From NCBI RefSeq assembly GCF_030409055.1, contig NZ_CP116619.1, positions 3,635,628-3,699,627 of the forward strand: 64,000 nucleotides of DNA, given 5' to 3'. Positions 22,750 to 43,448 of the stretch are shown in pieces. The notes under the pieces are model-generated. The model had not been told where the DNA came from. It did no database searches and saw only the letters and a program-made list of their open reading frames with translations. The first letter of the stretch is position 1. Each line of letters starts with the position of its first letter. This stretch comes from Trichocoleus desertorum NBK24 (GTDB taxonomy: Bacteria; Cyanobacteriota; Cyanobacteriia; FACHB-46). The translations under genes were made by a program, and so were the position numbers.

Positions 22750-23559
22750 TTAGGCGGCAATAAAGCTGTCAATGTCATTCAAGGCTTGCTCAATTTGCGC
22801 GATGCCTACTGTGATCTCTTCCCAGCTTCTTTGTTGAATTTGCTGTTCCATGCGCTCAGCCAGAGTTTGGACGACTTTAATTCCGACGTTAGCGCTAGCT
22901 CCTTTAATTTGATGAGCTTTGTGCTCGAGCGTCTTAAGGTCTTGAGTCTGTAGGGCTGTCTTGACCAGAGTGATGTTTTTACGAGTATCTTGCAGAAATA
23001 GCTGTAGCACTTGTTGCTGAAATACACTATTGCCGCGAGTAATACGCTGGAATCGGTCTAAGTCCAAGCCAACTCTGGTCGCTAATTCGGGTGTCACGAC
23101 CCCAGTTATTTCTGCCGCTGGCTCGGTTTCTGAAGGAGCCGACTCCCAGGCTTCCTCTGTTCCCACTTCAGATCCCAAAGCAAGACTCCAACGCTTTAAC
23201 TTCTCAATCAGTTCCGGTTCGCTAAAAGGTTTGTTGAGAAAGTCGTTCATGCCCGCATTCAGGCATTTTTCTTGCTCGCCCTCACAATCATTCGCGGTCA
23301 TGGCAATCACAATAGCTTGCCGATTCTGTCCTTCAAGGTTACGAATTGCTTGTGCTGTGGCATAGCCATCTAAGATAGGCATCTGACAGTCGAGCAGCAC
23401 CACCGTATAGTGAGTTTGAGCCAGTAGAGCCAGAGCTTCTTGACCGTTGGCTGCAACATCCGGTTCACAGCCTAAGCTTTTGAGTTGCCGACTCACAAGT
23501 CTTTGGCTGACAGGGCTATCTTCTACTAACAAAATTTTCAGCTTCGATAGATCTGTCAT
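22750..23559 (-). CDS. Receiver plus HPt phosphotransfer protein
   Basis: This 269-residue protein has an N-terminal receiver (Asp57 in VVLLDCQMPILDG, TAND, LNKPF). After a linker, a C-terminal HPt domain follows with phospho-accepting His216 in AHQIKGASANVG. No kinase or DNA-binding domain is present. It could accept phosphate at the receiver and relay it via the HPt, or act as a phosphate sink. It is the last gene of the minus-strand chemosensory cluster, 157 bases after cheB. Confidence 0.88.
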   Translation of the reverse strand: MTDLSKLKILLVEDSPVSQRLVSRQLKSLGCEPDVAANGQEALALLAQTHYTVVLLDCQMPILDGYATAQAIRNLEGQNRQAIVIAMTANDCEGEQEKCLNAGMNDFLNKPFSEPELIEKLKRWSLALGSEVGTEEAWESAPSETEPAAEITGVVTPELATRVGLDLDRFQRITRGNSVFQQQVLQLFLQDTRKNITLVKTALQTQDLKTLEHKAHQIKGASANVGIKVVQTLAERMEQQIQQRSWEEITVGIAQIEQALNDIDSFIAA

Positions 23560-23716: not shown

Positions 23717-24793
23717 TTACTTTTTTAGCCATATCTTATTGACAATAAAATTGGCGATTTCGGTGACAGGGAGTACATGTTGCACCACCCCCAATGCGAT
23801 CGCCTCCTTCGGCATGCCAAAGACGATACTACTCTTTTCATCCTGGGCAATCGTCATGCCTCCCGCTTGGGCGATCGCTCGCATGCCCTCTGCGCCATCT
23901 CGTCCCATTCCAGTTAGGAGGGTAGCGATCGCAGTCTTACCGTAAAACTTAGCCACGGAGTTGAATGTCACTGTCACCGAAGGGCGATGGCCGTCTATCA
24001 ATGCTGAAGCAGCACAGAGAAACTTTCCTTGGCTATCTAGCTCTAAATGAACCCGCTCTGGCGCAAAATAAATGGTTCCAGGGAGAGGCACTTCGCCTGC
24101 CTGAGCAATTTTGACATTTAGGCGGCACTCCGCTTTCAGCCAGTTGACCAATCCTTGCAAAAATCCTTCGCTGATATGTTGCACACAAAGGACTGGAAAC
24201 GGCAAGTTAGCAGGAAGATGGGTCAAGATTGCTTGCAGTGCCTGAGGCCCGCCCGTTGAGGCTCCAATGACGAGTGCCCGCATCCTTCCTGTACTCGTCC
24301 CTAGAGAAACTGGGTGGGTAGGATTGAGCACACTGACTGATGGTGAATTGTAGAGATCAGGCAGGCGACGCTTTGTAAAGACAGTCACACCGGATAAGAC
24401 TTTGATCTTAGTGATTAATTCTTGTTTGACCAGTTCGTAATCAGCAGCCAAACCTGCACCGGGTTTTGGGAAGACATCCACCGCTCCCGCTTCTAGCAAT
24501 TGAAAGATATTATGCGTGTTGTTGGGTTGTACAGAAGCACTAATCACCAGGATGGGTCGAGGATACTCTGCCATGATGTGCTTGGTAAACTCTAGCCCAT
24601 CCATTCCTGGCATATAGAAATCTGTACAAATAACGGTCGGTTCCGCTTGCGGAATTAATTCCAAGGCTTCAATACCATTCCGGGCGGTTCCAACTACTTG
24701 GATGTCTGGGGTAGAAGCTAGCATCCGTTGCAGGATCACCAGAGATACTGGAGAGTCTTCTACTAGAAAAACCCGAATTGGCAGAGATGGCAT
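23717..24793 (-). CDS. cheB: CheB methylesterase/deamidase
   Basis: Removes methyl groups from chemoreceptor glutamates, giving adaptation feedback. The 358-residue protein has an N-terminal receiver (Asp58 in CTDFYMPGMDGLEF) and a C-terminal catalytic domain with the triad visible: Ser in VIGASTGGPQALQ, His in CVQHISEGFLQG and Asp in LLTGMGRDGAEGM. Its ATG directly follows the cheA stop codon with no gap, so translation is coupled. CheB is uncommon next to cyanobacterial phototaxis-type systems and pairs here with the CheR at 31852. Confidence 0.96.
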   Translation of the reverse strand: MPSLPIRVFLVEDSPVSLVILQRMLASTPDIQVVGTARNGIEALELIPQAEPTVICTDFYMPGMDGLEFTKHIMAEYPRPILVISASVQPNNTHNIFQLLEAGAVDVFPKPGAGLAADYELVKQELITKIKVLSGVTVFTKRRLPDLYNSPSVSVLNPTHPVSLGTSTGRMRALVIGASTGGPQALQAILTHLPANLPFPVLCVQHISEGFLQGLVNWLKAECRLNVKIAQAGEVPLPGTIYFAPERVHLELDSQGKFLCAASALIDGHRPSVTVTFNSVAKFYGKTAIATLLTGMGRDGAEGMRAIAQAGGMTIAQDEKSSIVFGMPKEAIALGVVQHVLPVTEIANFIVNKIWLKK

Positions 24794-27376
24794 TTATACA
24801 AGTCTCCTTAAGGTGTCTAATAACACCTTTTGGTCAAAAGTACCTTTGGCAATATAGGCGTTAGCGCCCGCTTCAGCTCCTCGGCGTTTGTCATCATCGG
24901 TCGCTAAAGACGTTACCAAAATAATGGGTAATTCGCTATATTCTTTGTGTTGCCGAATCTTAGCAGTTAGCCCTAAGCCATCTAAATTAGGCATCTGCAC
25001 ATCTGAAACTACGGCATCAAACTCACGAGTTCTGAGTTTATTAAAGCCGTCTAAGCCATCTACGGCGGTCACGACTTCATAACCTGCACTCTCTAAGATC
25101 CGCTTTTCTTGTGTTCGAATGGTGATGGAATCCTCGACTAGTAGTACGGTTTGCTTGGGTGCTTGCACTTCTGCAAAGACTTTTGGAGCCAAAGTGTTAG
25201 CTCGCTGACGCACTGATTTGATCAGGTCGTGGGGGTTAAGCACCATGCAGACTTCCCCAGTACCTAAAATTGTAGCTCCGGAGACATTCCGTACTCGCTT
25301 TAGCAGCTTGCTTTGAGGTTTGAGGACAACATCTTGTTCATCTAGAAGAGAATCTACTAGAAGCCCTAAGCGATCGCTGCCAATTTTGAGAACGATGCAA
25401 GGTAACAACTTGGAATTAAGGCCAGGTGACTGAGAGCGTTTGGGCTGACTCGATTCTAATTCTAGTAGATTTGCCAATTCCACAATGGATACAGGTTGAT
25501 CTGCCAAAATAATAGTTTCCCGCCCCTCGATTGCGAAAACTTCATGAGGCTGGACTAACAGAGTCGTATGTACCGCTTCTACCGGAATGGCATAAGACCT
25601 TCCTTGGACTTCCACAATCAAGACATGGGCGGTGGATAAGGTGGTGCCCATTTGCACGCGGAAGGTGCAGCCTTGGCCTAACTGAGACTCTACGTGAATC
25701 GTTCCCTTGAGACGCTCTACGTTGGTTCGTACAACATCCAGCCCGACTCCCCGACCAGAGATCTCCGTCACGAAGCTCCGAGTAGAGAATCCAGGGGCAA
25801 AGATCAGCGATTGAATTTGGCTGGAAGTCATAGCAACCAAATCGGCTTCTCTCACCACCTCTCGCTTGAGCGCGGTCTGTTTGATGCTTTCGATGTCTAG
25901 ACCACGCCCATCATCACTAACTTCAATGACGATATTTGTGGCTGTTTGGTAGCCTTTTAAGCGAATGGTAGCTTGACGAGGTTTGCCCAAGCTTTCGCGT
26001 TCTGCGGGAGACTCTAGTCCATGATCAATGGCGTTGCGTACCATGTGCATTAAGGGATCTTTCATCTCCTCCAGCACTCGCTTATCTGCCCGCGTTTCTC
26101 CGCCTTCAATCACTAAATTGATTTCTTTGCCTTGTTGCTTGGCTAGGTCGCGCACCATTCGAGGCATTAATTGAAAAATAGTTGATAAGGGCAAGAGGCG
26201 CAGAGTTCGCACCCCTTCTTCGAGTTCACTTGCCACGACATCCAAGCGAGCATTGTCTTCGTAGGCTGTAGTTCGCAAGCGATTAATCAGCAATCCGAGA
26301 CGGTCTAGGCGTTCTTCTGTGCGGTGATAAAAGGTTTGGAGTTGGTTGAGGTCGCTCTGGTTGGTGCGGCGATCGCCACTACTGAAGGCGAAACGATTGA
26401 CAAAGGCATCGCGGCTCCACTCTTCCCACAAACTGGCGATCGCTTCAATCTCGCTTAAGCGATGGGCCACTCGGATTTTAGTGACGGTTAACTCGCCTGT
26501 TTGCGTCATTAACGCATCTAGTTTTTGAGTTTCTACCCGAATCGTTTCAATTCGGTAACTTCCCGAATCGTTAGCGTCTGCGATCGCTGGAGTTTTGGGG
26601 AGATTGGGCGGAGGGGGTGCAGTGTCGAGCTGGGGGAACTCCTGAGCCAAAGTAGCTTGCTCTCTAGTAGGCTCTACAGGCGCATCTGCAATGAGTTCTC
26701 CAAACACTATATCCTCAGCCCTGAGGGGAGGTAGTTCTACTACATTCAGGGAGTTGGAGTTCGTGGCATTGATGTCAGTGTTGACGTTTGGCTCTCTAGA
26801 TTCTCCGGATTCTACCAGATGACCATTCAGCACTTCAGGCATGCTCTCTGTAGAGATATTTGTAGAGATATTTGTAGAAATAGGTTGAGCGCTGCTGTTG
26901 TCTAACGCTCCTATGTTTGACACGGCAAGGGCAGTCTCAGAACTATTCGCTTCAGGATCATCCACCGCTTCAGCGACAACGGTTGGTGATGTTTCTGAGT
27001 CTGCAACTCCCATTAAATGGGCTAGAACATGGAAAGCATTGACATCCGCAGGTTCTCCTGTGACAGATTCATGCACCAGTTTACGAATTGCATCTAAGCC
27101 GTAATAAAGGCGATCGCTTACGGCTGCTAGGGTTAGCTTGCCATGCTTAATGGTGCCTAAGACATCCTCAATCTGGTGTGCCAAGGTGCCTACATCCCGA
27201 ACCCCTAGCATGTTGGCATCACCCTTCAGGCTGTGCGCTTCTCGCAATAAGTCTTCTAGCCTGGTGCGCTCGGAGGGATGTTGTTCTAAATACAGTAAGC
27301 CCGCTTCAAGCTGCTGTAGATGTTCTTCGCTCGCAGTTTTGAAGATACCACGGAGTTCTTCGTCATCAATCATCAT
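24794..27376 (-). CDS. cheA: Hybrid CheA histidine kinase with C-terminal receiver
   Basis: An 860-residue CheA. The HPt domain has His48 in REAHSLKGDANMLG. A poorly conserved Ser/Thr/Asn-rich linker spans about 130-270. The dimerisation and kinase domains follow, with N box MVRNAIDHGLESPAE, G1 SDDGRGLDIES and G2 SGRGVGLDVVRTN. A CheW domain comes next. The C-terminus is a receiver (VVSDVQMPNLDG, TSLATDDD, IAKGTF). Autophosphorylated His48 would pass phosphate to CheB, its own receiver or stand-alone receivers. It sits between the two receptors and cheB. Confidence 0.96.
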   Translation of the reverse strand: MMIDDEELRGIFKTASEEHLQQLEAGLLYLEQHPSERTRLEDLLREAHSLKGDANMLGVRDVGTLAHQIEDVLGTIKHGKLTLAAVSDRLYYGLDAIRKLVHESVTGEPADVNAFHVLAHLMGVADSETSPTVVAEAVDDPEANSSETALAVSNIGALDNSSAQPISTNISTNISTESMPEVLNGHLVESGESREPNVNTDINATNSNSLNVVELPPLRAEDIVFGELIADAPVEPTREQATLAQEFPQLDTAPPPPNLPKTPAIADANDSGSYRIETIRVETQKLDALMTQTGELTVTKIRVAHRLSEIEAIASLWEEWSRDAFVNRFAFSSGDRRTNQSDLNQLQTFYHRTEERLDRLGLLINRLRTTAYEDNARLDVVASELEEGVRTLRLLPLSTIFQLMPRMVRDLAKQQGKEINLVIEGGETRADKRVLEEMKDPLMHMVRNAIDHGLESPAERESLGKPRQATIRLKGYQTATNIVIEVSDDGRGLDIESIKQTALKREVVREADLVAMTSSQIQSLIFAPGFSTRSFVTEISGRGVGLDVVRTNVERLKGTIHVESQLGQGCTFRVQMGTTLSTAHVLIVEVQGRSYAIPVEAVHTTLLVQPHEVFAIEGRETIILADQPVSIVELANLLELESSQPKRSQSPGLNSKLLPCIVLKIGSDRLGLLVDSLLDEQDVVLKPQSKLLKRVRNVSGATILGTGEVCMVLNPHDLIKSVRQRANTLAPKVFAEVQAPKQTVLLVEDSITIRTQEKRILESAGYEVVTAVDGLDGFNKLRTREFDAVVSDVQMPNLDGLGLTAKIRQHKEYSELPIILVTSLATDDDKRRGAEAGANAYIAKGTFDQKVLLDTLRRLV

Positions 27377-27399: not shown

Positions 27400-28857
27400 T
27401 TATACCAAAGCTTTTAAGTTCAACGCTGTTTCATTCAGCTTTTGAGTTTCTACTTTGGTTTGGCTGATGCTACTCGCTGTTTGACTCGCTCCTTGATTGA
27501 GTACAGTCATGGCATCAATCACTTGTTGAATCGCGATCGCTTGCTGTTTAGCGGTGAGCGAAATTTGTTGGCTATTCATCGTGATGCTATTCACAGCAAC
27601 CACAATTGTCTCTACCGTTTTAGTGCCTTCATCCGTCACCATGACAGTCACGTTGGTAGTATTCTGAATGTCTGTGACTAAGGCGTTGATGCGTTCGGTA
27701 GATTGTCGGCTTTGGTCAGCCAGTTTGCGAATCTCGGCAGCTACCACTGCAAAGCCTTTGCCCTGATCTCCCGCTCTGGCTGCTTCTACGGCTGCATTCA
27801 AAGCCAACATATTGGTTTGATTTGCCAAGTCCCGGACTAGATCGGAGATGTTACCAATTTGGTTGGTCTGCTCACTTAAGCGCGAAATCTGCTCAGCCAT
27901 CTGCCCAACTCTGTCTTTCAGGCTGGTGCCCCTAGCGGATGACTCATCGCTACCATTACCGCTCACTAGCATTAGCACCTGTTGCGCTCCGGTGGCGGCA
28001 GCCTCCGCTTGACTAGCCGACTGACGTGCAGAAGTTCCCAACTCATCCATCGTTGCGGTAGTTTGGCTGACTGAAACGGCTTGTTGAGCGGCGGTGCGCT
28101 CTTGCTGCTCAACGGCCACTGCAATTTCTGTGGATGAGGATGCGAGTGTGTTGATGACATTGCTGAGTTTGGTACTCAATGGTTTGGCGATCGCTCTAGT
28201 AAAGTAGAAACCAAAAATAATAGCGATCGCAGGCCCCAACACCATCCCTAAGATTGCTAGGGTTGAAGTCTGTCTAACATCGTTTAGAGCTAGGGTTTCG
28301 GCTTCTTTGGCAACTTTATAGTTAACATCAAGCAGAGCCAGCATGTCATTGGTAGCAGCGTCAAAGGCCGTCCGCTCTTCATTCACTAAAAAGCGATTGA
28401 GTCGATCCATTTCAGTTAAAGAAATGCCATCTGTTTCTAGTTCTTGATAAAGCTGCAAAAACCTAGCCTGTTCTCTTTTCCAGGCTTCCCATTCCGGTAA
28501 GAACTGAGTTTTGTAGAGTTTAGCTTCGGCAGGAGTTTGGGGAGCTGGTTCGTATTCCGCAAATCCTTCGTTAATTTGCTGCCAAGCAGATTGGATTCGG
28601 TTTAATTCAACTTTGCGATCCTCTTGGCTTAAGCGGGGATTAGTTAGCAATCGCATGGAGGACTCTATTTGAGTTTGTCCTTCATTGATCTTCCATAACC
28701 CAGTGATACTAGGAATACTGATTTTGCTAAATGTTTCAATGCGACTACTGAGCCGAGCTGTACTATTCCAACCCAAGGCAGTAGACGCGAAAACAATAAA
28801 CCCCATAAACAGAAATGAACCGATGAGCCTGCCCTGTAGCGTCATGCTCTTGAACAT
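27400..28857 (-). CDS. Methyl-accepting chemotaxis protein, four-helix-bundle type, no HAMP seen
   Basis: A 485-residue membrane chemoreceptor. TM1 is at about 8-28, a helical periplasmic sensor (four-helix-bundle type) at about 29-195, and TM2 at about 198-222 ([20 protein letters not shown]). The cytoplasmic tip is [20 protein letters not shown] followed by [20 protein letters not shown]2 passes into the signalling helices within about 20 residues ([18 protein letters not shown]) and no HAMP domain is evident. No C-terminal pentapeptide for tethering CheR/CheB is seen. It is the neighbour and partial paralogue of the receptor at 28895. The ligand is unknown. Confidence 0.92.
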
Positions 28858-28894
28858 TAGAGAATCCTAATGAAGTTAATAGTGAAGTTGCTTG

Positions 28895-30307
28895 CTATAC
28901 CACTGCCTTTAAATCATGAGCAGCTTCATTCAGCTTCTGCGTACTGATTTTGGTTTGGCTAATGCCGCTTGCTGTTTCTAGCGCTCTTTGGTTCAAGGAC
29001 CCCATTGCATCCACAACTTGTTGAATTGCGATCGCCTGTTGTTTGGCGGTTAGTAAAATCTGCTGATTATTGACAGTGATGTTGTCAATCGCTGTGACAA
29101 TGCCTCCCACCGTTTTGTTGCCTTCATCAGCAACCATGACTGTAGAGTTGGTGGCGTTCTGGACATCAGAAACTAGTGAACTAATTCGTTCGGCTGACTT
29201 ACGGCTTTGATCCGCCAGCCTACGAATTTCGGCGGCAACTACTGCGAAACCTTTGCCATGCTCTCCAGCCCTGGCTGCTTCTACGGCTGCATTTAAAGCC
29301 AACATGTTTGTTTGATTTGCCAAATCACTCACCAAGATGGAAATACTTCCGATTTGGCTAGTTTGCTCGCTCAAACGCAAAATCTGCTCGGCAATTTGCC
29401 CTACTTTGTCCCGTAAGCTGGAGTTATGTGCTCCCCCTTGTTGTCCAATTGAGCCGTTACCATCTACTAAAACTAGGGCTTTTTGGGCGCTAGCTGCCGC
29501 AGCTTCAGCTTGTTGTGCTGACTGCCGAGCAGAAGCCCCTAACTCATCCATCGTTGTGGTCGTTTGGCTGACTGCGGCGGCCTGTTGGCTAGCGGTACGT
29601 TCTTGTTGGTCTACAGCCACCGCAATTTCTGTTGCAGAACTGGCGATCGCGCTTGCTACTTGATTGATAGGTTGCACAATGCGACGAGCAATAAAAAACG
29701 CGACAGAGGAACCCACAACAATCACAATTACAGTTCCACCAAGAGACATAAAGGAAGCAAAGCGTTCAGCTCTGTTTGCCGCAGCCTCTCGATCTGCTAA
29801 AAGCTTGTCTTCCACAGCTTGCATCGCAGTCAGGTTTTTGCGAATATCATCCATTGTTGCCTTGCCCTCACCTGACAGCACTAAAGCTCTCAGTTCCTGC
29901 TCTCGACCTTGCCGCTTGAGCGTGATGGTGCGGGCTAACTCATCTAGTTTTCGTTCGGTCAAAACTTCTACTTGATCAAGCGTTCGTCTTTGTTCTTCAC
30001 TTCTAATTTCGTTTGTTAGTTGGCTTATATGGTCATCAAGCACCTCTGTGGCTTGATTGTAGGGTTCTAGAAAGTCTTCTCGGCCTGTGAAGATAAACCC
30101 ACGCTGACCAGTTTCGGCATTCACCAAAATAGTTTCTAGTTCTTGAAGATCTTGTTTAACTTGATGAGTGTGATTGACCCAGGCAATGGAGTCAACCAAA
30201 ATTTTCATACTCAATTTTGAGGCCAAGCCGACCCCAACCATGAGCGCAAAAATAACTCCAAAGCCAATCGGAACGACTCGACTCAATTTCATGTTTCTTT
30301 GTAACAT
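28895..30307 (-). CDS. Methyl-accepting chemotaxis protein, CHASE3-type sensor, no HAMP seen
   Basis: The 470-residue receptor has TM1, then a CHASE3-like periplasmic domain (VNAETGQRGFIFTGREDFLE is the recognisable CHASE3 signature), then TM2 (GGTVIVIVVGSSVAFFI). The signalling domain is very close to that of the neighbouring receptor (SEIAVAVDQQERTA-type stretch, [20 protein letters not shown]). No HAMP is evident between TM2 and the signalling helices. I chose the ATG at 30307, preceded by GGAGGG; an upstream ATG at 30343 adds 12 residues. Ends NEAAHDLKAVV, similar to the neighbour. The two genes probably arose by duplication with sensor exchange. Confidence 0.92.
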   Translation of the reverse strand: MLQRNMKLSRVVPIGFGVIFALMVGVGLASKLSMKILVDSIAWVNHTHQVKQDLQELETILVNAETGQRGFIFTGREDFLEPYNQATEVLDDHISQLTNEIRSEEQRRTLDQVEVLTERKLDELARTITLKRQGREQELRALVLSGEGKATMDDIRKNLTAMQAVEDKLLADREAAANRAERFASFMSLGGTVIVIVVGSSVAFFIARRIVQPINQVASAIASSATEIAVAVDQQERTASQQAAAVSQTTTTMDELGASARQSAQQAEAAAASAQKALVLVDGNGSIGQQGGAHNSSLRDKVGQIAEQILRLSEQTSQIGSISILVSDLANQTNMLALNAAVEAARAGEHGKGFAVVAAEIRRLADQSRKSAERISSLVSDVQNATNSTVMVADEGNKTVGGIVTAIDNITVNNQQILLTAKQQAIAIQQVVDAMGSLNQRALETASGISQTKISTQKLNEAAHDLKAVV

Positions 30308-30747
30308 TTCAGTCCCTCCACTCCAGTGATCCCATGAGCGCAATCAGCTCCTTTTTACGAGCGATCGTCCTGTTTTAGATAAAATAACTATCCAACTCAG
30401 TCATATTCTGAGTTGGACTCTGAAAAAACTAAAGCGTAATCAGAGGTTGGTACGGGTATTTCATAAAAATAAAAAAACAGTGTAAATGCTGATTTTTGCT
30501 ATTTAGAGTCATGATCAAACAATTGTTCTGCTGAAATTTATTTCAGCACCAATCAAGACCTAGCTACTTTAGCAAGCCCATCTCAGTTTAATAAAGTAGA
30601 GATCTTTAATAAATTTTATGGTTTGAATATAAAGGTTAATATCTGTAAAAATACATAAAAAAGCGATCGCATTAATTGCGATCTTGTCTGCAAATGAGCT
30701 ATTCGGTAGGAGTTCTTAACTAGAACTAGGGATGTGTAGTGAAAACT
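30308..30747. other. Non-coding gap inside the minus-strand chemosensory cluster
   Basis: This 440-base AT-rich gap between the double-CheW gene and the first receptor gene is much longer than the other gaps in the cluster. It contains a perfect 10-bp inverted repeat (30391-30417) and no convincing coding frame. It may hold a promoter for the receptor-cheA-cheB part. Confidence 0.5.
30391..30417. promoter_or_regulatory. Perfect 10-bp inverted repeat in the receptor leader
   Basis: TCCAACTCAG (30391-30400) and CTGAGTTGGA (30408-30417) are separated by seven bases. The repeat lies 84-110 bases upstream of the receptor ATG at 30307. On the minus strand it is followed by an AT-rich TAGTTATTTTATC stretch. 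It could be an operator, a leader hairpin, or the terminator of the upstream genes. Confidence 0.5.
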
Positions 30748-31785
30748 TTATAGCTCTTCCTCAACGAATAAGTTACCTTGCTGTAAAATGTTTGGCATAT
30801 CTAAAATTCCCATCATTTTTTCGCGATAAAGTGCAGTTCCTTTCAAAAAGTCACTTGCTTCAAGGTACATAGCAGCAGGCACAGGCTTTAGCTCATTAGG
30901 ATGTAGGTAGGTTACATCGAAGACCTCATCCACTGTGATGCCAGCAATCACATCAGCAATATCTACTATCATCGACTTCATGGCTGAACTACTAGGACTA
31001 ATCGATAAATTCAGCAAAGTTCGAATATCAATCAGTGTGACAATTTCCCCTCTTAGGTTCATGTTCCCAACAATATGAGCGGGGCAGCAGGGAATCGGTG
31101 TGACCTTTTGGATATCTGTAAACTCTCGGACAAACTTGAGATCTAACCCAAAATACTCTCCATTGAGGCCAATCACCGCTAACGGCATCAAACCCGTAAA
31201 GTCTTGGTTTTGAGGCAATTGCAGTAAATTAGTGGCTCGGACTCGTAGGACTGCTTGTTCTGCTACCGATAAATGGCGAGATAGCTTTGTTGTTTGTCTT
31301 GATTCATCTGCCTGATCGGTTGCAACTTCTAATGCGGCTAATGTTTCATTCAGCGAAGACTGACGAACCAACTTTTCGTGATTGAGAATAGTAATAATCT
31401 CGCCATCAGTTTTAGCGATTCCAGAGGTAAATCTGGATGCGGTTTCTTGCTCTCTACCGTACTGAACTGCCACTTCAATAGTAGCGGAATCGAGGTTTTT
31501 AACGGCATGAACTTGATTTACTAAGATGCCAATCAAGAGTTCCTGCCACTCCACTACAACCACACTATCACTTAACTGATAATCTTTTGGTTGTCGTCCC
31601 AACCGACGAGCGAGATCCATGATTGGCACGATTTTACCCCGCAGATTAATCATGCCGATAATGTCGGGTGGTGCCTCCAAAGCCTCTGTTAGCTCTGGTA
31701 CATAAAAGATTTCATAAACGAGGGCAGCTTTTACACCATACAGTGAACCATGAAGACTAAAGATTAAGTAGGGATCTGACAGCAT
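30748..31785 (-). CDS. cheW: Double CheW-domain coupling protein
   Basis: CheW domains link receptors to CheA. This 345-residue protein has two in tandem, about residues 1-145 (FSLHGSLYGVKAALVYEI, INLRGKIVPIMDLARRL) and about 200-345 (VIGLNGEYFGLDLKFVREF, NLRGEIVTLIDIRTLL). There is no receiver, so it is not CheV. A double CheW could bridge two receptor or kinase rings. It lies 66 bases after cheR and 440 bases before the receptor gene. Confidence 0.92.
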   Translation of the reverse strand: MLSDPYLIFSLHGSLYGVKAALVYEIFYVPELTEALEAPPDIIGMINLRGKIVPIMDLARRLGRQPKDYQLSDSVVVVEWQELLIGILVNQVHAVKNLDSATIEVAVQYGREQETASRFTSGIAKTDGEIITILNHEKLVRQSSLNETLAALEVATDQADESRQTTKLSRHLSVAEQAVLRVRATNLLQLPQNQDFTGLMPLAVIGLNGEYFGLDLKFVREFTDIQKVTPIPCCPAHIVGNMNLRGEIVTLIDIRTLLNLSISPSSSAMKSMIVDIADVIAGITVDEVFDVTYLHPNELKPVPAAMYLEASDFLKGTALYREKMMGILDMPNILQQGNLFVEEEL

Positions 31786-31851: not shown

Positions 31852-33321
31852 CTAATTCAACAGTTTTTTAATGTATAGAATCAGCTCACTTGCCACCAAC
31901 TGTTCCTGATACTCTATAGTTGCATGTGGAGATACTTGCCTCAGCAAATCTAAGGCTGTGTTGCGCATTTTTCTAGCTCTGACAAAATCACCTTCTTGGT
32001 TGTAAATAGATCCTAAATCTAAGTAGGCAGCGATCGCTTTAGGGTCTAAATAAATAATTTTTCTCAGAATAGATTTGGCTAGCTCTATATCCCCTTGTTC
32101 TTCAGCAATCTTAGCTAATAGATAGTAAGGTTTGACCGATGAAGCCTTTAAATTAATGGCTTGCTGACAACAATCTTGAGCTTTTTGGTACTGACCTAGA
32201 TTGGCATAGGCTTGAGCGGCTAAATAATAGGCCTCAAAACTGCTGGGGTCATGCTTAATAGCTTGGTTTGTTGCTTGTAAAGCGAGCACGTAGGCACCCT
32301 CCTTGACTAGCTTCTCAGCTTGTTTCAGTGCTGCTTGATATAAAGCGGCTTGCGTTTTCTCAGGAATTGGGGAGACAGGGGATCGCTGGGGCGTTGGCTC
32401 CGGTGAAGGTAATGACCGAGGCTGCTCTGGTTGTTTAGCCTGAGGCGAGGGGGCGGAAATAGGACGTTGATATATAATTGATTCCGGCAAAATTTGAGCG
32501 TTAAACTGACTTAGCTCTTGATTACAAAGTTCTGCATGACCAGTCATTAAATATCCTCCTGGTCTCAAAGAATCATGAAACTTCGTTAAAACTGTCGCGA
32601 TCGCAGCAGCATCAAAGTAGATAAATACATTGCGACAAAGAATTAGATCTAAATCACAGATGTTAGACAAAGAATTAGGAAATTTGTCTTGGATTAGATT
32701 TCCCGCCGAAAACTTCACCATTTGACGAATTTTAGTGTCAATCTCCCAACCTAATTTGGTCTGAGAAAAATGCTGCTTTTGTAATTCGGCATTTACAACC
32801 CGAAAAGACCAAGAGCTATAAATCCCTTGCTGGGCTTTTTGAATTACTTCTGAATTAATATCAGTTCCTAATATAGTAATGTTCCAATCATCTTGTCTTG
32901 GCAATAATTCATTAATTAAAATGGCTAGCGAGTAAGCTTCTTCCCCTGTAGAGCAGCCTGCGCTCCAGACTTTGAGCGAAGCTTTGGGCTTACCCTGCTG
33001 AATCTTTAGATTTCTTTGATAACTGATAATTTCTGGTAATATTTTATTTCTTAGAAGATTGTTTTGTCCCTGATCTCGGAACAAGTAACTTTCTCCAGTC
33101 GTCAATAAAATGACTAACTCTTGCCATTCGCGATCGCTCTGGGGACTTGAACCTTCTAGAAGACTGTAGTATTGGGAAAGATTTGATAGTTTGAGGGTTT
33201 GCATCCTCGTGATAAATTTTTTAGAAATATTAGTCTGATCTTGCGATCGGATCTGTAATCCTGTTCGTATAGAAATTAATTGAAATAAAGCTGGCAGGAA
33301 TTCATCCTGAGTAGAAAACAT
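31852..33321 (-). CDS. cheR: CheR methyltransferase fused to TPR repeats
   Basis: Methylates receptor glutamates with S-adenosylmethionine. The first 270 residues hold the CheR fold: the N-terminal helical domain, then the SAM-binding motif SAGCSTGEEAYSLAILI, and LILCRNVFIYFDAAA. A Pro/Ser-rich linker (about 285-315) leads to TPR repeats (ALQATNQAIKHDPSSFEAYY and following). TPR-fused CheRs usually reach receptors without a tethering pentapeptide, which fits the tail-less receptors of this cluster. Length 489. It lies 82 bases after the large histidine kinase gene. Confidence 0.95.
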   Translation of the reverse strand: MFSTQDEFLPALFQLISIRTGLQIRSQDQTNISKKFITRMQTLKLSNLSQYYSLLEGSSPQSDREWQELVILLTTGESYLFRDQGQNNLLRNKILPEIISYQRNLKIQQGKPKASLKVWSAGCSTGEEAYSLAILINELLPRQDDWNITILGTDINSEVIQKAQQGIYSSWSFRVVNAELQKQHFSQTKLGWEIDTKIRQMVKFSAGNLIQDKFPNSLSNICDLDLILCRNVFIYFDAAAIATVLTKFHDSLRPGGYLMTGHAELCNQELSQFNAQILPESIIYQRPISAPSPQAKQPEQPRSLPSPEPTPQRSPVSPIPEKTQAALYQAALKQAEKLVKEGAYVLALQATNQAIKHDPSSFEAYYLAAQAYANLGQYQKAQDCCQQAINLKASSVKPYYLLAKIAEEQGDIELAKSILRKIIYLDPKAIAAYLDLGSIYNQEGDFVRARKMRNTALDLLRQVSPHATIEYQEQLVASELILYIKKLLN

Positions 33322-33403: not shown

Positions 33404-36400
33404 TCAAGCTGCGTAATTTGCATTTACTTCAACGGGCCGTAGAGCTGTAGGAGGAGCTATGGGAATTTGAATCAAGAACTCTGACCCCTGCCCTGGCTCC
33501 GAGAGACAATTTAGCATTCCCCCGTGCTTATCTACCACAATCTGGTAGCTGATCGATAATCCTAGACCCGTTCCTCTGCCTACAGGTTTAGTTGTAAAGA
33601 AGGGATCAAACAACCGTCCTCTCACAGATTCATTCATCCCAGGGCCATTATCTTTGACTCGAATGAGGATTTGAGGAACTGTGCTAATTTGCCCTAAACC
33701 TAATAACTCTAGAGAAGCTGCTAACTCAGCCGTTAATAGTTCTGTTTGAATGGTGATTTTTCCAGATTGTGGCTGTTCTTCTAAAGCATCAACTGCGTTA
33801 CTCAGAATATTCATAAAGACTTGATTGAGCTGTCCTGCGTAACATTCAACTAAGGGCAATTCTCCATACTCTTTAATGATTTCAATCCCTTGATTGCTGC
33901 CAGCAGGCTTGAGACGGTTTTGTAAAATTAGTAAAGTGTTATCAATCCCTTCATGGATGTCTACTGGCTTCATTTCCGCTTCGTCTAAGCGAGAGAAGTT
34001 GCGGAGTGATAGCACAATTTGGCGGATGCGATCGGCTCCCATCTTCATAGAAGAAAGCAACTTCAATAGATCTTCAGTCATAAACTCAACATCTAATTCT
34101 TGAATCTGCTGCTGAATACTCTCCTCCGGTTCGGGATAACACTTTTGATACAAGTGCAGCAACTCTAATAAATCTTGAATGTAGTTGTCAGCGTAGATGA
34201 GATTGCCGCTGATGAAATTCACAGGATTATTGATTTCATGAGCAACACCCGCCACCAATTGGCCTAAGCTCGACATTTTTTCGGTTTGGATAAGTTGCGA
34301 TTGTGTCTGCTTCAGATGTTGTAGCGCTTCGGTCAACTGTTTTGCCTGAGTCTGAGCGGCAAAGGCAGCAGCCCGTGTCTGAGCATACAGTTCGGCCTGG
34401 TCAATCGCGATCGCCAGTTGGTCTGTCACAGCTCGCAACAACTCCACTTCTGCCTCAGTCCATTGCCGAGGGCCACTCGCATGGCTACAAACAATGGCTC
34501 CAAATTGCCCTGACCGAGTTTCTAAGGGAAGCAATAATTGCGAAGTCATCCCTAAATGGGACAACAAAGCTTGCACATCCACATCGATGTTCTGATCATT
34601 GCTAGCATCATCGATCTGAATGACATCGGCGCTCAGAACTTGCCTCACTACCAAATCGGTATACTGGGGCGGAAAATCTCCTAACAAACTGGGGAGAGTG
34701 GCATGCCGAGCCTCATGAGTGACGGCTAGAGTGGGTTGCTCTGGATGCGGCCAGCACCAAACAAAATGGCATCGATCAATTTTCAACAAACTACGGATTT
34801 CGGTGACAGCCGTTTCTAAAATGGTGTCTAAATCGAGAGAGTTACGAATTTGGTTGGCTAAGCGCAACATTAAAGCTTCGCGCTGACTCAGCAACTCTTC
34901 TCTTGCCCAAGCTCGGTCGATCGCAACTGCAATGCTGTTGGCTACCCAGCCCAAAAAGTTCTGGACTGTGTCCGTAATTAGCTTGCGACTAAAGAGCGCC
35001 ATCACTCCGACAAGTCGATCTTCCACAATTAGCGGATAACCTACAAAGGTCTGCATCCCTTCTTGCTGCACCCACTCGGTCGCTCCAACGCACAAATCCT
35101 TGGACACATCATGACTTAAATATGGCGTCCGATTTTGGGCAATGAAGCCAACAATAGAGATGCCCAGAGAGATCAAACTAGGGAAGTCTTCTGTGTGGCT
35201 GTGTTGTCCCGCGATCGCCTGGAGTTCTAATAAATTGGTGTCAGCGTTGAAGGTCCAGATGCGTACAAAGGCGGCTTCTAGCTGCTGAGCCACGGCGTTA
35301 ACAAAGCGATCCAGCACCTCTGGTAAATCTCCGCCTTGAGCTAAGGCAATCCCAATTTCAGCGCTTAAGGTTGAAAGGCGCGATCGCTCAATCAGAGCTA
35401 CTTCCGCTTGCTTTCTGGCCGTTACATCTCGGAAATAAACCGATAGGCCATCTTGGTACGGATACGCCTGCACTTCAAACCAAGTTTCTAGGGGGGCGTA
35501 AAATTCCTCAAAATGCACCGTTACCTGCTCACTCACGGCTCTGTGATACTCACGGTGAAATGTAGATCCTACAGTCTCCGGTAGCTGGTCCCAAATCCGC
35601 TGACCAATCAACTCTGCTCGGTCCCTAAATAGGATCTGCTCAGCTTGTGAGTTGACGTAAGTAAAGCGCCAATCGCGATCGAGAGCAAAAAACGCATCGG
35701 TGACACTTTCCAAAATGTTGATGATGCGCTTGTTTGACTTTTGCAGTTCTTCCTCGGCCCATTTGCGATCGCTGAAGTCAATTAAAATGCCATTCCACAG
35801 GAGATCTCCATTGGCTTGCCGAGACGGACACGACGCTCCTTGTATCCACTTCACTTGGCCTGAGGGTAAAACAAATCTCCCCTGCCATGCCCAAGACTCT
35901 AGGGTTTCGGCTGAAACTGCAATGGACTGATCTAGACCTGGGCGATCGTCTAGGTGGATGAGACTAAAAATGGCATCAGCATCCTGTTGAATAGCTTCTG
36001 GCTCCAACTCCAGCAATTCCCGTGAACCAGGGCTGATAAAGGGAAAAGCCAGTGAACCATCGGAGCGCAAGAGAAATTGGTAGACCATGCCAGGAATCGT
36101 GGTCGCCATCTTCTGGAAGTTGGCCTCACTCTCTTTTAAGGCAGCTTGAGCTTGCACCCATTCAGTCACATCGTTCAGCGTGCCAGACGCACCCATCACG
36201 GTGCCATTCGCCGCACACATCTGTTGTATATAGATTTCTAGCCAACAGAGATCCCCCGCTTCTGTGAAGAAACGGAGTTGCTGCCGAAAACTATCTATCT
36301 TTCCTTGCACGATCGCTTGCAGTTGGGCCTGGGTAGACTCATGCTCGTCTGGATGCAAGTAGTCAGTAATGGAGCTACCAATGGATTCTCCCAACGAGAA

Positions 36401-38212
36401 GCCCGTAATTTCTGTCCAAGCAGGATTAAGGAAAGTCCAGCGACCCTCCACGCTTAGTTGAAAGATGACTTCTTTGATGCTCTCGACCACAGAGCGGTAC
36501 TGCCTTTCACTTTCCTGTAGGGCGGCTTCGGCTCGCTTGCGCTCCGTAATGTCTTCTGAGATCCCTAATAGATATTGAGGATTTCCAGTGGCATCCAGTA
36601 AAGGAATTTTTTTGGTATGTAAAACCCTAGAGCCTCTGTGCTTGGTATGAATTTTTTCTTCTGAACTATGAATTAATTGTTTAACCTGGATTACTTCTTG
36701 ATCTTTGGCTCTAAAAAAGTCAGCTTCTGATTCAGGAAAGAAATCATAATCATCTTTACCAATCATTTCGGCTCTAGAGAGACCCGTTAGTTCTTCACCA
36801 AATTTGTTGAATTTAACAAACTTGAAATCGCGGGCATCTTTCACAAAAACCATGTGCGGAATGTTTTCGACGATCGAGTCTAAAAACATCTGGGTCTGCC
36901 GGATTTCTGCTTCGGAAGCTTTACGCTCTGTGATGTCGTGAGCAACTGCATAAATCAAGCCTTGCTCTACTAAAGACGTGGCCTTCCAAGAAAGCCATTT
37001 GTAAGAGCCATCTCTACAGCGATAGCGGTTTTCGAAGCAAAGCGTTTCTAAACCTGACTTCAATCTCTCTAGTTCGGCTGCGGTGGCTGCTTGATCCTCT
37101 GGATGTACCCATTGGCTGAGGGGATGGGCCGAGAGTTCTTGCTGCGTAAAACCTAAGTTCTTTTCCCAAGCTGGACTGAGATATCTAAAATAGTGGTCAA
37201 AATCAGTAATAGAAAGCATGTCGAGGGAGAGGGTAAAGAAGCGATCGCGTTCTTCCTCAGCTTTCCGGCGTTCTGTAATATCAATCCCTGTACAAATAAT
37301 ATGCTTAGTCGATTCATCGGCATTCAATAAAACCGTATGTGACCAAGCAATAATGCGGCGATCGCCAAGCTTGGTTAAACATTGGCTTTCGTATTGGTTG
37401 ATAGGCTGCCCCAACTGCAACTTCTGTAGCATTGTTGCTACTTGCTCTATATCTTGAGGCGAGACAAACAAGTCCCAAAAATAACGCTCTTTGACTTCCG
37501 AAAAGGTGTACTGGGTTGTGTCAGCACAAACTTCATTGATCCGCAACACTTGTCCTTGAGGATTTAACACAACCACTAGGGCGTTGGCTGTCTCTAGTAC
37601 GGTAGAAACAAAGTTACGAACTAGCTCATCGGTTGAATCCAAAACAGTTGCCAAGAGGTTGCGTTCTTCTTGGAGCGCTAGTTCAACCTGCTGGCGATCG
37701 CTAACCGCTTGAGTCAAAGCTCGGAGATTGAGACGTAACTCCAGTTGAGTCACAACCTGACGGCTCAACGCTAACAGCGCTTCTTGTTGCTCTTGGCTTA
37801 GCGTTCGAGGCTCATAATCGATTACACAGAGGGTTCCTAAGGAAAATCCTGCCTGCGTGATTAAAGGCGCTCCCGCATAAAACCGAATATAGGGGGCATC
37901 AACTACCAGAGGATTAGTCGCAAACCGTTCATCCAACAACGCATCCTCAACCAAAAACAACTTTGGCTGCAAAATCGCGTGAGCACAGAACGCTACCTCC
38001 CGTGAGGTTTCACAGGCCGTCAACCCAACCTTGGACTTAAACCACTGGCGGCTCTTATCCACCAAGCTCACCAAAGCAATCGGGGTTTGACAAATCTGAG
38101 CGGCCAAACGAGTGATGTCATCAAAACTAGCTTCAGAGCCAGTGTCTAGAATCTGATACTGGTGCAAAGCAGCTAGTCTGGCTGATTCGTTGCTAGGAAT
38201 GGGTGCTTGCAT
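33404..38212 (-). CDS. Giant multi-PAS/GAF sensor histidine kinase
   Basis: A 1602-residue soluble sensor kinase with no membrane segments. Order: GAF (about 15-165), six PAS-type domains (about 200-935, several ending in DITERK), two more GAF domains (about 960-1100 and 1130-1285), then the kinase. The H box is [17 protein letters not shown] (His near 1325), the N box [13 protein letters not shown], and the G boxes VKDNGPGMN and [14 protein letters not shown]. No C-terminal receiver is present. I see no conserved Cys in a GAF that would prove bilin binding, but cannot exclude it. It is first in the minus-strand cluster, so it may feed signals to the receivers there. The partner is unknown. 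Confidence 0.93.
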
Positions 38213-40619: not shown

Positions 40620-43448
40620 ATGTCTGTTCATTCAAGCTTAGAAGCTGGCGTCCGTGCTCTTCAGTCAGGCCACTATCAAGAAGCGATTGCATTGCTGGAG
40701 TCTGCCCAAGCAGAAAATCCCCAAGACTCTAACCTGCACTACTGGCTAGCTCGCGCTTACCAAAGAGCAATTTATGAGTCTGAGAATGCTAAAGTTCACA
40801 GCGTTGCTCCGATTCCCCAATCTCAGCCTCTCGATCAGAACATTGTCAATGGGCCACTCGACTCCGCTATCGAGCCAAAAGCCAACTCCCAAGCAGCGGG
40901 TGATCAGTGGATGGTGGCTGAAGTGCCTTGGGTCGGGGCACAGGACTTGGGATTACCCCAGGTAGACCCGTTTACATCCTTTGCCACTGCAAGACCGTCA
41001 ACTTTTAGCCAGTTGCAAAGTCAGCCTCAAATCCATACTCAAGGTCAGCCTCAAACTCATCCTCAAAGCTATCCTGTGCTGAGCCGAAAAGTCATTGTCG
41101 CAATTCTGGGCCTCAGCATTGTGCCCCCCTTACTGATGGGAGGACTGGCGATCGCTGCTAGCATCTATTTCACGACTCAGCCAGAAACAACGGGGGTGCA
41201 GTCGTCTTTCTTCATGACCCTAGCAGCAGGGACAGGCTTGATTGCAGTAGTCGCAGGAGCGATCGCCATAGCTCTCACCCGTCGCACTCTCCATCCTTTA
41301 ATGACGGCTGCGGCTGTAGCGACAAAGGTTAGCCAGGGAGATCTGAGTGCTCGTGTACCAGCGCAGAACTCAGGGCCAGCCAATGATATCGCGGTCATGT
41401 TAGGTGCAGGCGTGAATCACCTAGCAGAGCGAATCCAAGGGCTATTGCAGCAGAATCAGGCGCAAGTGCAGCAGCACCAAAGACACCAAAGCCAGTGGCA
41501 AGAGCAGGCACAAGCGATCGCTCAGACGGTACAAGACTTGAGTACAGGCAAATTGGATGCTCGAACCTCTCTTCCAGAACCGAGTTTTCTGCAAGAGTTA
41601 GGCAACCAAGTTAACTCGATGGGGTCTCAGCTAGAAACTCTAATTACAGAATTACGCAATCAGCAAAAAGCTTTGGATGCATCCGCGATCGTATCAGTGA
41701 CCGATCGTAAAGGACTCATCACTTACACCAACCAAAAATTCTCCGAGATTTCTGGTTACAACCGCGAAGAACTCCTAGGCCAAAATCATCGGATTGTTAA
41801 CTCTGGAATTCATCCTAAAGACTTCTTCACGACTCTGTGGGCAACGATCGCAAGCGGCAAGATATGGCGTGGTGAAATCAAGAACCAACGTAAGGATGGT
41901 TCCTTCTACTGGGTGGATTCCACCCTCATGCCCCTTTTTGATAGCAAAGGTATTATTTCTGGCTACATTGGGGTGCGCTTTGACGTCACGGAACGCAAAC
42001 AAGCTGAAGAACGCTTCCAAGCCCTAGCTTTAGCGCAAGTTAGCTTAGTTCAAGAAATCAAAAATCGACAAAGCGTACTGGATGAAGCCGCCATTGTAAG
42101 CGAAACCGATCGCAAGGGGAACATCACCTTTATCAATGACAAGTTTTGTGAAATCTCTGGCTACAGTCGCGAAGAGTTACTAGGCCAGAACCATCGAGTA
42201 GTTAACTCTAGCCATCATCCCAGAACCTTTTTCGCCGAAATGTGGGGCACGATTTCCACGGGTCGAGTCTGGAAAGGTGAGATTAAAAATCAGCGCAAAA
42301 ATGGAGATTTCTACTGGGTGGATTCCACCATTGCTCCCATCTTTGACCCCGACGGCAAAATTATGAAATACATTGGCATCCGCTTCGATGTCACTGAGCG
42401 GAAGCAAGCTGAGGAGCGCTTGGAGAAGCAGGCTCAAGAGCGCAAAGCTGAAGCAGATGCCATTACCCAACAAGTTGTTAAACTGCTCAACGAGATTAAG
42501 GGTGCAGCCAAGGGAGATTTAACCGTCAAGGCCGCAGTCACCAACGACTCTTTAGGCGCTTTGGCCGATTCCTTTAACTACCTAATTAGCTCGTTGCGAA
42601 AGGTGGTTCTCAATATTCAATCTGCTGCAATCCAGGTAAATCAGTCCACCACAGACTCCATTAGCAACACGAATGAGCTAGCCCAGCAAGCCCGGATGCA
42701 GGCTTCTCAAATCGAGAGTACCTTGCGACAAATTGAGCGGATGCTGAACTCAATTCAAGATGTTGCAGAAGCGGCAAATCGAGCTGAGCATGTAGCGAAA
42801 CAAGCCGCGCAAACCGCAGAAATTGGGGGTGAAGCAGTCGATCGCACTGTAGATGGCATCAACGACCTCCGTCAAACGATTTCTGAGACCTCCAAAATGA
42901 TGAAGCGCTTAGGAGAAGGCTCGCAGCAAATTGGCAAAATTGTTACTTCTATTTCTCAGATTGCTTCCCAAACTAACCTCCTGGCCCTCAATGCCACCAT
43001 TGAGGCAGCCCGCGCTGGAGAGCAAGGCAAAGGCTTTGCGGTAGTAGCTGAAGAAGTTCGCAAGCTAGCAGAGCGTTCTGCCTCTGCAACTGAAGAGATT
43101 TCTGACATTGTTAGTACCATCCAAGATGAAATTAGCCGAGTCATGGTGGCGATGGAAGCGGGAACCCAACAGGTAGTAGGCGGTACCCAACTAGCTTCTG
43201 AAGCTAAAACCAATCTGAATGCCATCATCGAAGTGAGCCGAGAGATTAATGGTTTGGTGCAGAACATTACCAAGGCGGCTCAGCGACAAATTACTTCTGC
43301 TGAAGACATCTCTGGCAGCATCCAAGAGGTGAGTGAGATTTCTACCAACACCGCCGAAAAAGCAGAGAACGTCACTGTCGCTTTAGATGGGTTAGCGGTA
43401 GTGGTCAACAAACTGCAAAGCTCGGTCACTAATTTCCGCTCCTCGTAA
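40620..43448 (+). CDS. Chemoreceptor with TPR-like N-terminus and two PAS domains (PilJ-type)
   Basis: The 942-residue protein has a cytoplasmic TPR-like helix pair (AGVRALQSGHYQEAIALLES), a long linker, and two membrane segments (about 158-185 and 198-225). HAMP follows (TRRTLHPLMTAAAVATKVSQ), then two PAS domains (about 350-465 and 476-590) that are clearly duplicates. A second HAMP-like segment (GDLTVKAAVTNDSLGAL) leads to the MCP signalling domain, whose tip is QTNLLALNATIEAARAGEQG. Both PAS domains end in DVTERKQAEER. No phytochrome-type GAF is present, unlike PixJ. It is the receptor of the plus-strand cluster and is 64 bases from its CheA. Confidence 0.94.
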   Translation: MSVHSSLEAGVRALQSGHYQEAIALLESAQAENPQDSNLHYWLARAYQRAIYESENAKVHSVAPIPQSQPLDQNIVNGPLDSAIEPKANSQAAGDQWMVAEVPWVGAQDLGLPQVDPFTSFATARPSTFSQLQSQPQIHTQGQPQTHPQSYPVLSRKVIVAILGLSIVPPLLMGGLAIAASIYFTTQPETTGVQSSFFMTLAAGTGLIAVVAGAIAIALTRRTLHPLMTAAAVATKVSQGDLSARVPAQNSGPANDIAVMLGAGVNHLAERIQGLLQQNQAQVQQHQRHQSQWQEQAQAIAQTVQDLSTGKLDARTSLPEPSFLQELGNQVNSMGSQLETLITELRNQQKALDASAIVSVTDRKGLITYTNQKFSEISGYNREELLGQNHRIVNSGIHPKDFFTTLWATIASGKIWRGEIKNQRKDGSFYWVDSTLMPLFDSKGIISGYIGVRFDVTERKQAEERFQALALAQVSLVQEIKNRQSVLDEAAIVSETDRKGNITFINDKFCEISGYSREELLGQNHRVVNSSHHPRTFFAEMWGTISTGRVWKGEIKNQRKNGDFYWVDSTIAPIFDPDGKIMKYIGIRFDVTERKQAEERLEKQAQERKAEADAITQQVVKLLNEIKGAAKGDLTVKAAVTNDSLGALADSFNYLISSLRKVVLNIQSAAIQVNQSTTDSISNTNELAQQARMQASQIESTLRQIERMLNSIQDVAEAANRAEHVAKQAAQTAEIGGEAVDRTVDGINDLRQTISETSKMMKRLGEGSQQIGKIVTSISQIASQTNLLALNATIEAARAGEQGKGFAVVAEEVRKLAERSASATEEISDIVSTIQDEISRVMVAMEAGTQQVVGGTQLASEAKTNLNAIIEVSREINGLVQNITKAAQRQITSAEDISGSIQEVSEISTNTAEKAENVTVALDGLAVVVNKLQSSVTNFRSS

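Follow-up and report, generated by a model that had tools for sequence, protein, structure and literature searches.

How does a chemoreceptor carry a signal down its stalk when the HAMP domain is missing and one of the two arms of the stalk has been cut? This question is raised by two tandem genes in a 64,000-nucleotide stretch of the Trichocoleus desertorum NBK24 genome (contig NZ_CP116619.1, positions 3,635,628 to 3,699,627; hereafter the window), which encode the receptors P0001 (27400-28857, 485 aa, with a four-helix bundle (4HB) sensor) and P0002 (28895-30307, 470 aa, with a CHASE3 sensor). The features of the pair and of its operon all lie on the reverse strand; G000 denotes the window's own genome, and other L and G numbers denote other loci and genomes. 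By the usual account, stalk length changes through matched gain or loss of heptads in both arms, and it is not obvious how parts of a gene that lie far apart come to change in concert. Our reading, to which as a whole we give a probability of roughly 0.78, is that P0001 and P0002 are transmembrane chemoreceptors serving a CheR-TPR/CheW-CheW/CheA-REC/CheB pathway of their own; that they lack HAMP and that P0001 is a mosaic; and that both have lost two heptads from the C-terminal arm (C-arm), facing a stretch of the N-terminal arm (N-arm) that is a loop, so that the stalk has a flexible joint.

The arm lengths are best judged against the relatives of the two receptors. In 136 of the 167 family members kept (16 of 234 frames were excluded because the tip motif was absent) exactly 135 residues separate the tip of the hairpin (the E of AARAGE) and the stop codon; in 20 the number is 121, one of these being a cut copy of P0002. 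Frames shorter than 232 aa, this copy included, were removed before the segments between fixed anchors were measured, and since the loci were partly chosen for short matches, the ratio of 19 short to 136 full-arm members is no frequency. Every one of the 136 full-arm members has an N segment of 42 and a C segment of 33 residues, an invariance that led us to reject chance variation of a linker. All 19 short members have a C segment of 19 residues, 14 fewer, together with an N segment of 39-62 residues in 18 and of 16 in the remaining one; none of them has the normal N-arm, 18 carrying a loop and one a larger deletion. The window receptors have the C segment of 19 and N segments of 40 and 42, and they do not follow the usual arm symmetry, described in an excerpt of PMC5907407 as a general rule of receptors. 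Both the 14-residue deletion and the loop had been overlooked in the initial annotation of this DNA.

The deletion begins 52-53 residues after the tip and the loop stops 52 residues before it, and these matching distances place the two opposite each other in the antiparallel hairpin. In P0001, alignment and segment lengths put the loop at aa 298-312 (15 residues, 27922-27966), and alignment puts the junction of the deletion in 12 residues at 27592-27627. In P0002 the loop is VDGNGSIGQQGGAHNSS (aa 281-297, 29417-29467) and the junction falls between GNKTVG and GIVTAI (29087-29122). The N-arm core positions -62, -61, -57 and -54 are hydrophobic in fractions of 0.76, 0.99, 0.94 and 0.98 of 132 full-arm members, against 0.26, 0.05, 0.26 and 0.05 of the 19 rows with a short C-arm. 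Furthermore, where the helix restarts in those 19 rows, the residue just before it is S in 16 of them, N in two and H in one, compared with S or N in only 18 of the 132. Judged from the sequences, the stretch facing the deletion is a hydrophilic loop with ends of the helix-cap type, placed at the position of a glycine hinge.

Structure prediction gives a similar picture. AlphaFold2 (AF2) models were made as monomers from 24 sequences each (predicted template modelling score, pTM, 0.41 in both), and the helix limits alone were used. In the model of P0002 (predicted local distance difference test, pLDDT, 78.3) the signalling helices run up to residue 282 and then over 294-346, 348-394 and 400-469, with breaks at 283-293 in the N-arm (pLDDT below 50 at 284-296) and at 395-399 in the C-arm, whereas the full-arm control L070 (pLDDT 84.8), modelled from the same 24 sequences, has unbroken helices at 149-347 and 349-484. 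Of the solved structures, that of E. coli Tsr (1qu7, 3zx6 and 8c5v) has the same signalling tip, and its arm lengths equal those of P0002 minus the loop: P0002 (240-466) has 14 residues more than 1qu7 (3-215), and in the alignment with 8c5v the surplus gaps all fall in the N-arm. Tsr has a HAMP domain and unbroken arms. The full-arm member L016, with 28 residues more than 1qu7, aligns to Thermotoga maritima Tm1143 (2ch7) free of gaps over 238 residues, and it is by the C-arm deletion and the N-arm loop that P0001 and P0002 differ from Tm1143. As regards a heptad class (36H or 40H), the comparison consists of these lengths against 1qu7 and 2ch7.

A stalk that is two heptads shorter and carries a flexible joint is likely. 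Beyond the membrane-side bundle the rod would continue at about the hairpin length of E. coli Tsr, and the joint would lie about 78 Å from the tip (about 52 residues to the start of the loop, at 1.5 Å per residue), where only the C-arm could bridge it as a helix. An excerpt of Stalla 2019 (PMC6628036) places a glycine hinge at a similar level, 75 Å from the tip, and in packed arrays, where other receptors bend at their hinges, the joint may contribute further bending; the glycine and HAMP hinges described there consist of a glycine cluster or a flexible bundle within the coiled coil, whereas here a loop is combined with loss of the facing strand. The same sequences can also be read as a one-sided bulge, in which an unbroken four-helix bundle has simply become shorter by two heptads, with a continuous C-arm and with the surplus of the N-arm as a passive loop that has no hinge function. 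In its favour, a loss of exactly 14 residues leaves the heptad phase of the C-arm intact, the C-arm core positions remain hydrophobic across the junction, the length of the loop is unconstrained, and P0002 without its loop agrees with Tsr in each of the arms. A joint is favoured by the AF2 model, in which N-arm and C-arm are both broken; in the C-arm, too, pLDDT falls below 50 at 395-399 and the control is unbroken there. Moreover, the loop starts at a glycine (-65) that is kept in 99% of the 132 full-arm members, near the hinge of PMC6628036. We consider the bulge somewhat less probable than even.

Two further explanations concern the loop itself. It might serve a regulator such as CheR-TPR or a kinase as a docking site, acquired at the cost of coil length; the loops often resemble one another at their ends (VDG...SSL), and the orthologues of P0002 retain a recognisable pattern, GNG...GG.HNSS. 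However, the middle of the loop has no motif common to paralogues and its length varies from 14 to 37 residues, which makes this proposal an improbable one. Loop and deletion might instead be signs of decay in receptors whose hairpin has ceased to work, as the rapid change of the loop relative to its flanks could suggest: P0001 and L054 are identical at 2 of 15 loop positions and 133 of 173 flanking ones, with a milder difference between P0002 and its relative in G002 (14 of 17 against 170 of 173). Yet the reading frames are intact, the helix-cap type residues are retained and the arrangement recurs in several families. In an alignment of 24 family sequences, in which the hairpin tip is largely invariant, Q242, Q423 and Q424 of P0002 are also invariant and Q415 and Q416 nearly so; with regard to a possible methylation by CheR, the Gln pairs are conserved. 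We regard decay as very improbable.

The initial annotation had held that neither receptor has a HAMP domain and that each passes from its second transmembrane helix (TM2) to the signalling helices in about 20 residues, and both statements are borne out. A Pfam scan for HAMP (PF00672) gave no match in P0001 up to E 10, and in P0002 only a trace, in which aa 205-223 match the first 19 of the 53 profile positions with E 0.64 and 10.8 bits, where the cut-off is 25 (RRIVQPINQVA, 29654-29686, lies within this match). TM2, placed by hydropathy at aa 200-219 of P0001 (28201-28260) and aa 188-207 of P0002 (29687-29746), ends 24 and 19 residues, respectively, before the conserved TEIA of the N-arm. Alignment with HAMP-bearing relatives, rather than a Pfam call, suggests that 16 residues of P0001 (28153-28200) are what is left of the first helix of a HAMP domain. 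A complete but divergent HAMP was rejected on the basis of the Pfam scans and of the alignment to the HAMP-bearing paralogue, which leaves the first helix only. In the AF2 model of P0002 one continuous helix (147-282) leads from TM2 into the N-arm; a stimulus would then move the helix and so act from TM2 directly on the membrane-side (methylation) bundle, with no HAMP switch.

The rest of the genome is not poor in HAMP: there are 34 matches, none of them in its three frames of this receptor family. Among its nine MCPsignal frames, three receptors at 4.97 Mb and a 1005-aa frame carry the domain, and the PAS receptor at 40620-43448 of the window scores above the whole-protein cut-off with a match covering part of the profile only; P0001, P0002, the third family member (2103919-2105310) and a 281-aa frame are without it. 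This last frame (G000:C1:3237297-3237524, L009) has a partial MCP signalling match of 39.1 bits and a degenerate tip, and is possibly a decayed or soluble receptor. A 2237-aa frame elsewhere (G000:C1:2890-2895 kb) has 13 consecutive HAMP matches. Across the family, a Pfam scan at E 0.01 covered 127 of the 167 members (17 further ones were within a separate scan of 24), and 125 of the 127 have no HAMP. Members of 440-512 aa have HAMP in 0 of 90, CHASE3 in 57 and 4HB in 36; the longer ones have HAMP in 2 of 37 and dCache_1 in 24 of 37. HAMP was matched in L078, from Leptolyngbya FACHB-321, and in L097, from a Nitrospirae bin.

The first receptor is of composite origin. Its 4HB_MCP_1 sensor (aa 5-187, 28297-28845, Pfam E 2.2e-12) has little in common with the CHASE3 sensor of P0002 (aa 42-175, 29783-30184, E 2.5e-37, related to the solved sensor 3va9); the sensor halves are 20% and the signalling halves 74% identical, and in both proteins MCPsignal (PF00015) follows the sensor (E 3.2e-32 and 4.4e-30). 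The same genome encodes a HAMP-bearing 4HB receptor, L003 (G000:C1:4971-4973 kb), to which the sensor half of P0001, with TM2 and the first HAMP helix, is 47% identical; L003 has a complete HAMP and a dissimilar signalling half, only 30% identical to that of P0001. In 20-residue windows the identity of P0001 to L003 falls from 10/20 at 221-240 and 8/20 at 241-260 to 2/20 at 261-280, and over the same windows its identity to P0002 rises from 6/16 to 17/20 and 16/20. The breakpoint zone so defined is aa 236-243 (28129-28152); the initial annotation had proposed to look for a breakpoint near TM2. The residues of P0001 before the switch correspond in the alignment to the first HAMP helix of L003, which points to a HAMP-bearing receptor as the origin of the sensor. 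On this comparison of sequences P0001 is a mosaic, in which a HAMP-bearing receptor has supplied the sensor, TM2 and the first HAMP helix, and these are joined near residue 240 to a HAMP-less signalling half. Sensor swaps are a known kind of event.

Sensors of the P0001 type occur in 21 of 242 genomes. In a sensor tree of 25 rows (one distant row and four duplicates excluded), for which HAMP content was read from the alignment rather than from Pfam, 11 rows have one HAMP, three have two, six have none (five of these in one group) and five are P0001-like hybrids, which do not form a single group (three changes). A separate, complete loss of HAMP, judged in the same way, is seen in L235, L238, L242, L246 and L247 (family f16) and in L239, where TM2 is joined directly to the post-HAMP helix; L235, L238, L242 and L246 are 54 residues shorter than L003 and their post-TM2 helix resembles that of L003.

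The initial annotation explained the pair by duplication plus a sensor swap. The swap holds for P0001, with its breakpoint near residue 240 and its 47% and 30% identity to L003; a recent local duplication finds no support. A recent tandem duplication of one receptor within this genus, followed by a sensor swap, would account for signalling halves that are 74% alike beside unrelated sensors and for the sharp breakpoint after TM2. However, the third family member of the genome is 70% and 68% identical to P0001 and P0002 in the signalling half, so that the pair is hardly closer to each other than to another receptor of the genome, a result close to the one that the annotation had named as refuting it. 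Furthermore, both sensor types recur in G223, from another family, and the operon order there is the same, which indicates that the pair is older than the genus or was transferred as an operon. The signalling half of P0002 is 75% identical to G223_a, about as close as to its own neighbour, and the two halves of the G223 pair are 81% identical to each other but 75% and 73% to their sensor-matched partners here, which suggests conversion of the signalling halves in place. Within the genus itself the tandem pair is present in G002, while in G001 the two relatives are on different contigs; in the tree of signalling halves the three from the window's own genome each group with relatives from that genus. 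We therefore consider a recent duplication unlikely. The receptor pair is probably old, and the G223 identities fit homogenisation of the signalling halves or repeated swaps.

The arm-length association was tested in new genomes with a short-arm query in 386 genomes, from which 20 regions were picked by hand and not all matches were taken. Two frames were already known, and five without the tip motif were not counted (two with a short C-arm and loop, two with full arms, one unread). The 22 new countable members comprise five short ones, 15 with an uncut C segment and two that are lengthened; the N-arm loop is present in all five short members and the N segment is 42 in all 15 with an uncut C segment. 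No new members came from searching the families to which G223 and G144 belong. For the tree of signalling halves, made without indel columns, near-copies above 88% identity were thinned (166 to 116 rows); 13 of the 20 short members form one group (SH-aLRT, the Shimodaira-Hasegawa-like approximate likelihood ratio test, 94), and the deletion needs six changes on this tree and four on a smaller set. Lengthened stalks also occur in the family. In Laspinema sp. D2d (L071, 1589-3130 and 3365-4996) and in L311 (G519) the N-arm is longer by 14 or 28 and the C-arm by 15 or 30 residues at the same spot, and L306 (G497) has a lengthened N-arm (+28) and C-arm (+15); the additions in L071 are visible as tandem repeats in both arms and are possibly a snapshot of matched lengthening.

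Several observations weigh against our reading or limit it. In an approximately unbiased (AU) test, on a set from which six long or truncated rows and half of the full-arm rows had been removed, a single origin of the 19 short members is not rejected (p-AU 0.74), so they do not count as independent events, and a proof of many independent origins of the deletion was rejected on this ground. In one short member, L084_26_949 from Phormidium pseudopriestleyi, 28 residues of the N-arm are missing and there is no loop, leaving the arms mismatched. L078 (2726-4693) has the loop and a C segment of 19 together with HAMP (60.5 bits) and a dCache sensor (it stands outside the 19 because its tip-to-stop distance of 96 residues is 25 shorter than in the other short members), and full-arm relatives without HAMP have no loop; taken together, these indicate that loop and HAMP loss are not coupled. 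Short- and long-arm receptors share one operon in L171 (G162) and lie side by side in L073 (Oscillatoria princeps) and L306 (G497), and such neighbours fit poorly with a single array height and speak against a simple rule of one height per operon. The geometry of a joint is beyond the reach of monomer models from 24 sequences at a pTM of 0.41. Finally, 29 of the 86 loci of at least 5 kb have none of the che genes sought.

The remaining loci nevertheless connect the family to a particular set of genes. The signalling-half profile found members in 94 of the 388 genomes of the class at E 1e-60, or 49 of 160 genera, with Oscillatoria princeps, Spirulina, Nostoc, Microcoleus and Crocosphaera among the carriers, and further members in Gallionellales, Desulfobulbaceae, Nitrospirae and Ignavibacteriaceae bins. 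In 57 of the 86 loci a gene related to the window's double CheW or to its CheA adjoins the receptor, and in 32 both do; loci linked in this way include the Gallionellales, Desulfobulbaceae and Ignavibacteriaceae bins. The full order CheR-TPR, double CheW, receptor(s), CheA, CheB is found in L045, L170, L171 (reversed) and the window, where Pfam and synteny identify CheR-TPR (31852-33321), a protein with two CheW domains (30748-31785), CheA with Hpt, H-kinase_dim, HATPase, CheW and a C-terminal receiver, REC (24794-27376), and CheB with REC and methylesterase domains (23717-24793). Adjoining CheB is a REC-Hpt protein (22750-23559), by its domains a possible output partner. P0002 has an alternative TTG start at 30343; the start of its relative in G001 corresponds to 30307. 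Neither receptor has a tail after the hairpin, the proteins ending ...LKALV and ...LKAVV; this agrees with the missing pentapeptide of the initial annotation, and its connection to a CheR that does carry TPRs is plausible.

Wsp proper has its own gene content, including a diguanylate cyclase response regulator. With the Wsp-type and "alternative cellular function" pathways, as outlined in an excerpt of Munoz-Martinez 2012 (PMC3447774), the window operon has in common that a single operon unites CheR-TPR, CheB and CheA with a receiver, and also contains membrane receptors and two CheW domains; WspC is itself a CheR-TPR according to an excerpt of PMC5907407. It differs in that the CheW domains are fused, the receptors lack HAMP, a REC-Hpt regulator stands beside CheB and no GGDEF was found in the seven window proteins scanned by Pfam. 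Next to the operon lies a 1602-aa multi-PAS/GAF histidine kinase (33404-38212, reverse strand), and comparable kinase stretches occur near several family loci. The PAS receptor at 40620-43448 (forward strand) has an N-terminal TPR match and is part of a second cluster with CheW- and CheA-like frames; in an excerpt of PMC3447774 the chemoreceptor-TPR kind is reported as exclusive to Cyanobacteria.

Receptors without HAMP are as such already known, as an excerpt of PMC6628036 states; the loss of two heptads from one arm with a loop opposite was not found in the literature searched. In the open-licence PMC articles, as far as the searched text extends, no description of HAMP-less cyanobacterial receptors of this kind or of one-armed heptad loss was recognised, which is no proof of absence. 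It is about an even chance that these receptors are a living intermediate of stalk-length change, in which one arm was cut by two heptads in a single step and the other was rescued as a capped loop at the glycine hinge, giving an articulated, HAMP-free stalk that would signal through the C-arm alone. The relatives in Laspinema (L071) and G519 (L311) show the reverse, nearly matched additions of 14 or 15 residues in both arms at the same spot. With one arm cut and the other looped in about two dozen sequences, and uncut relatives as controls, intermediates of such a change become testable. Furthermore, one sensor type occurs with no HAMP, part of one, one or two, which is material for asking what HAMP does. 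Natural receptors that signal without HAMP are now at hand, and they provide a natural test both of how stalk length changes and of how the signal is relayed.

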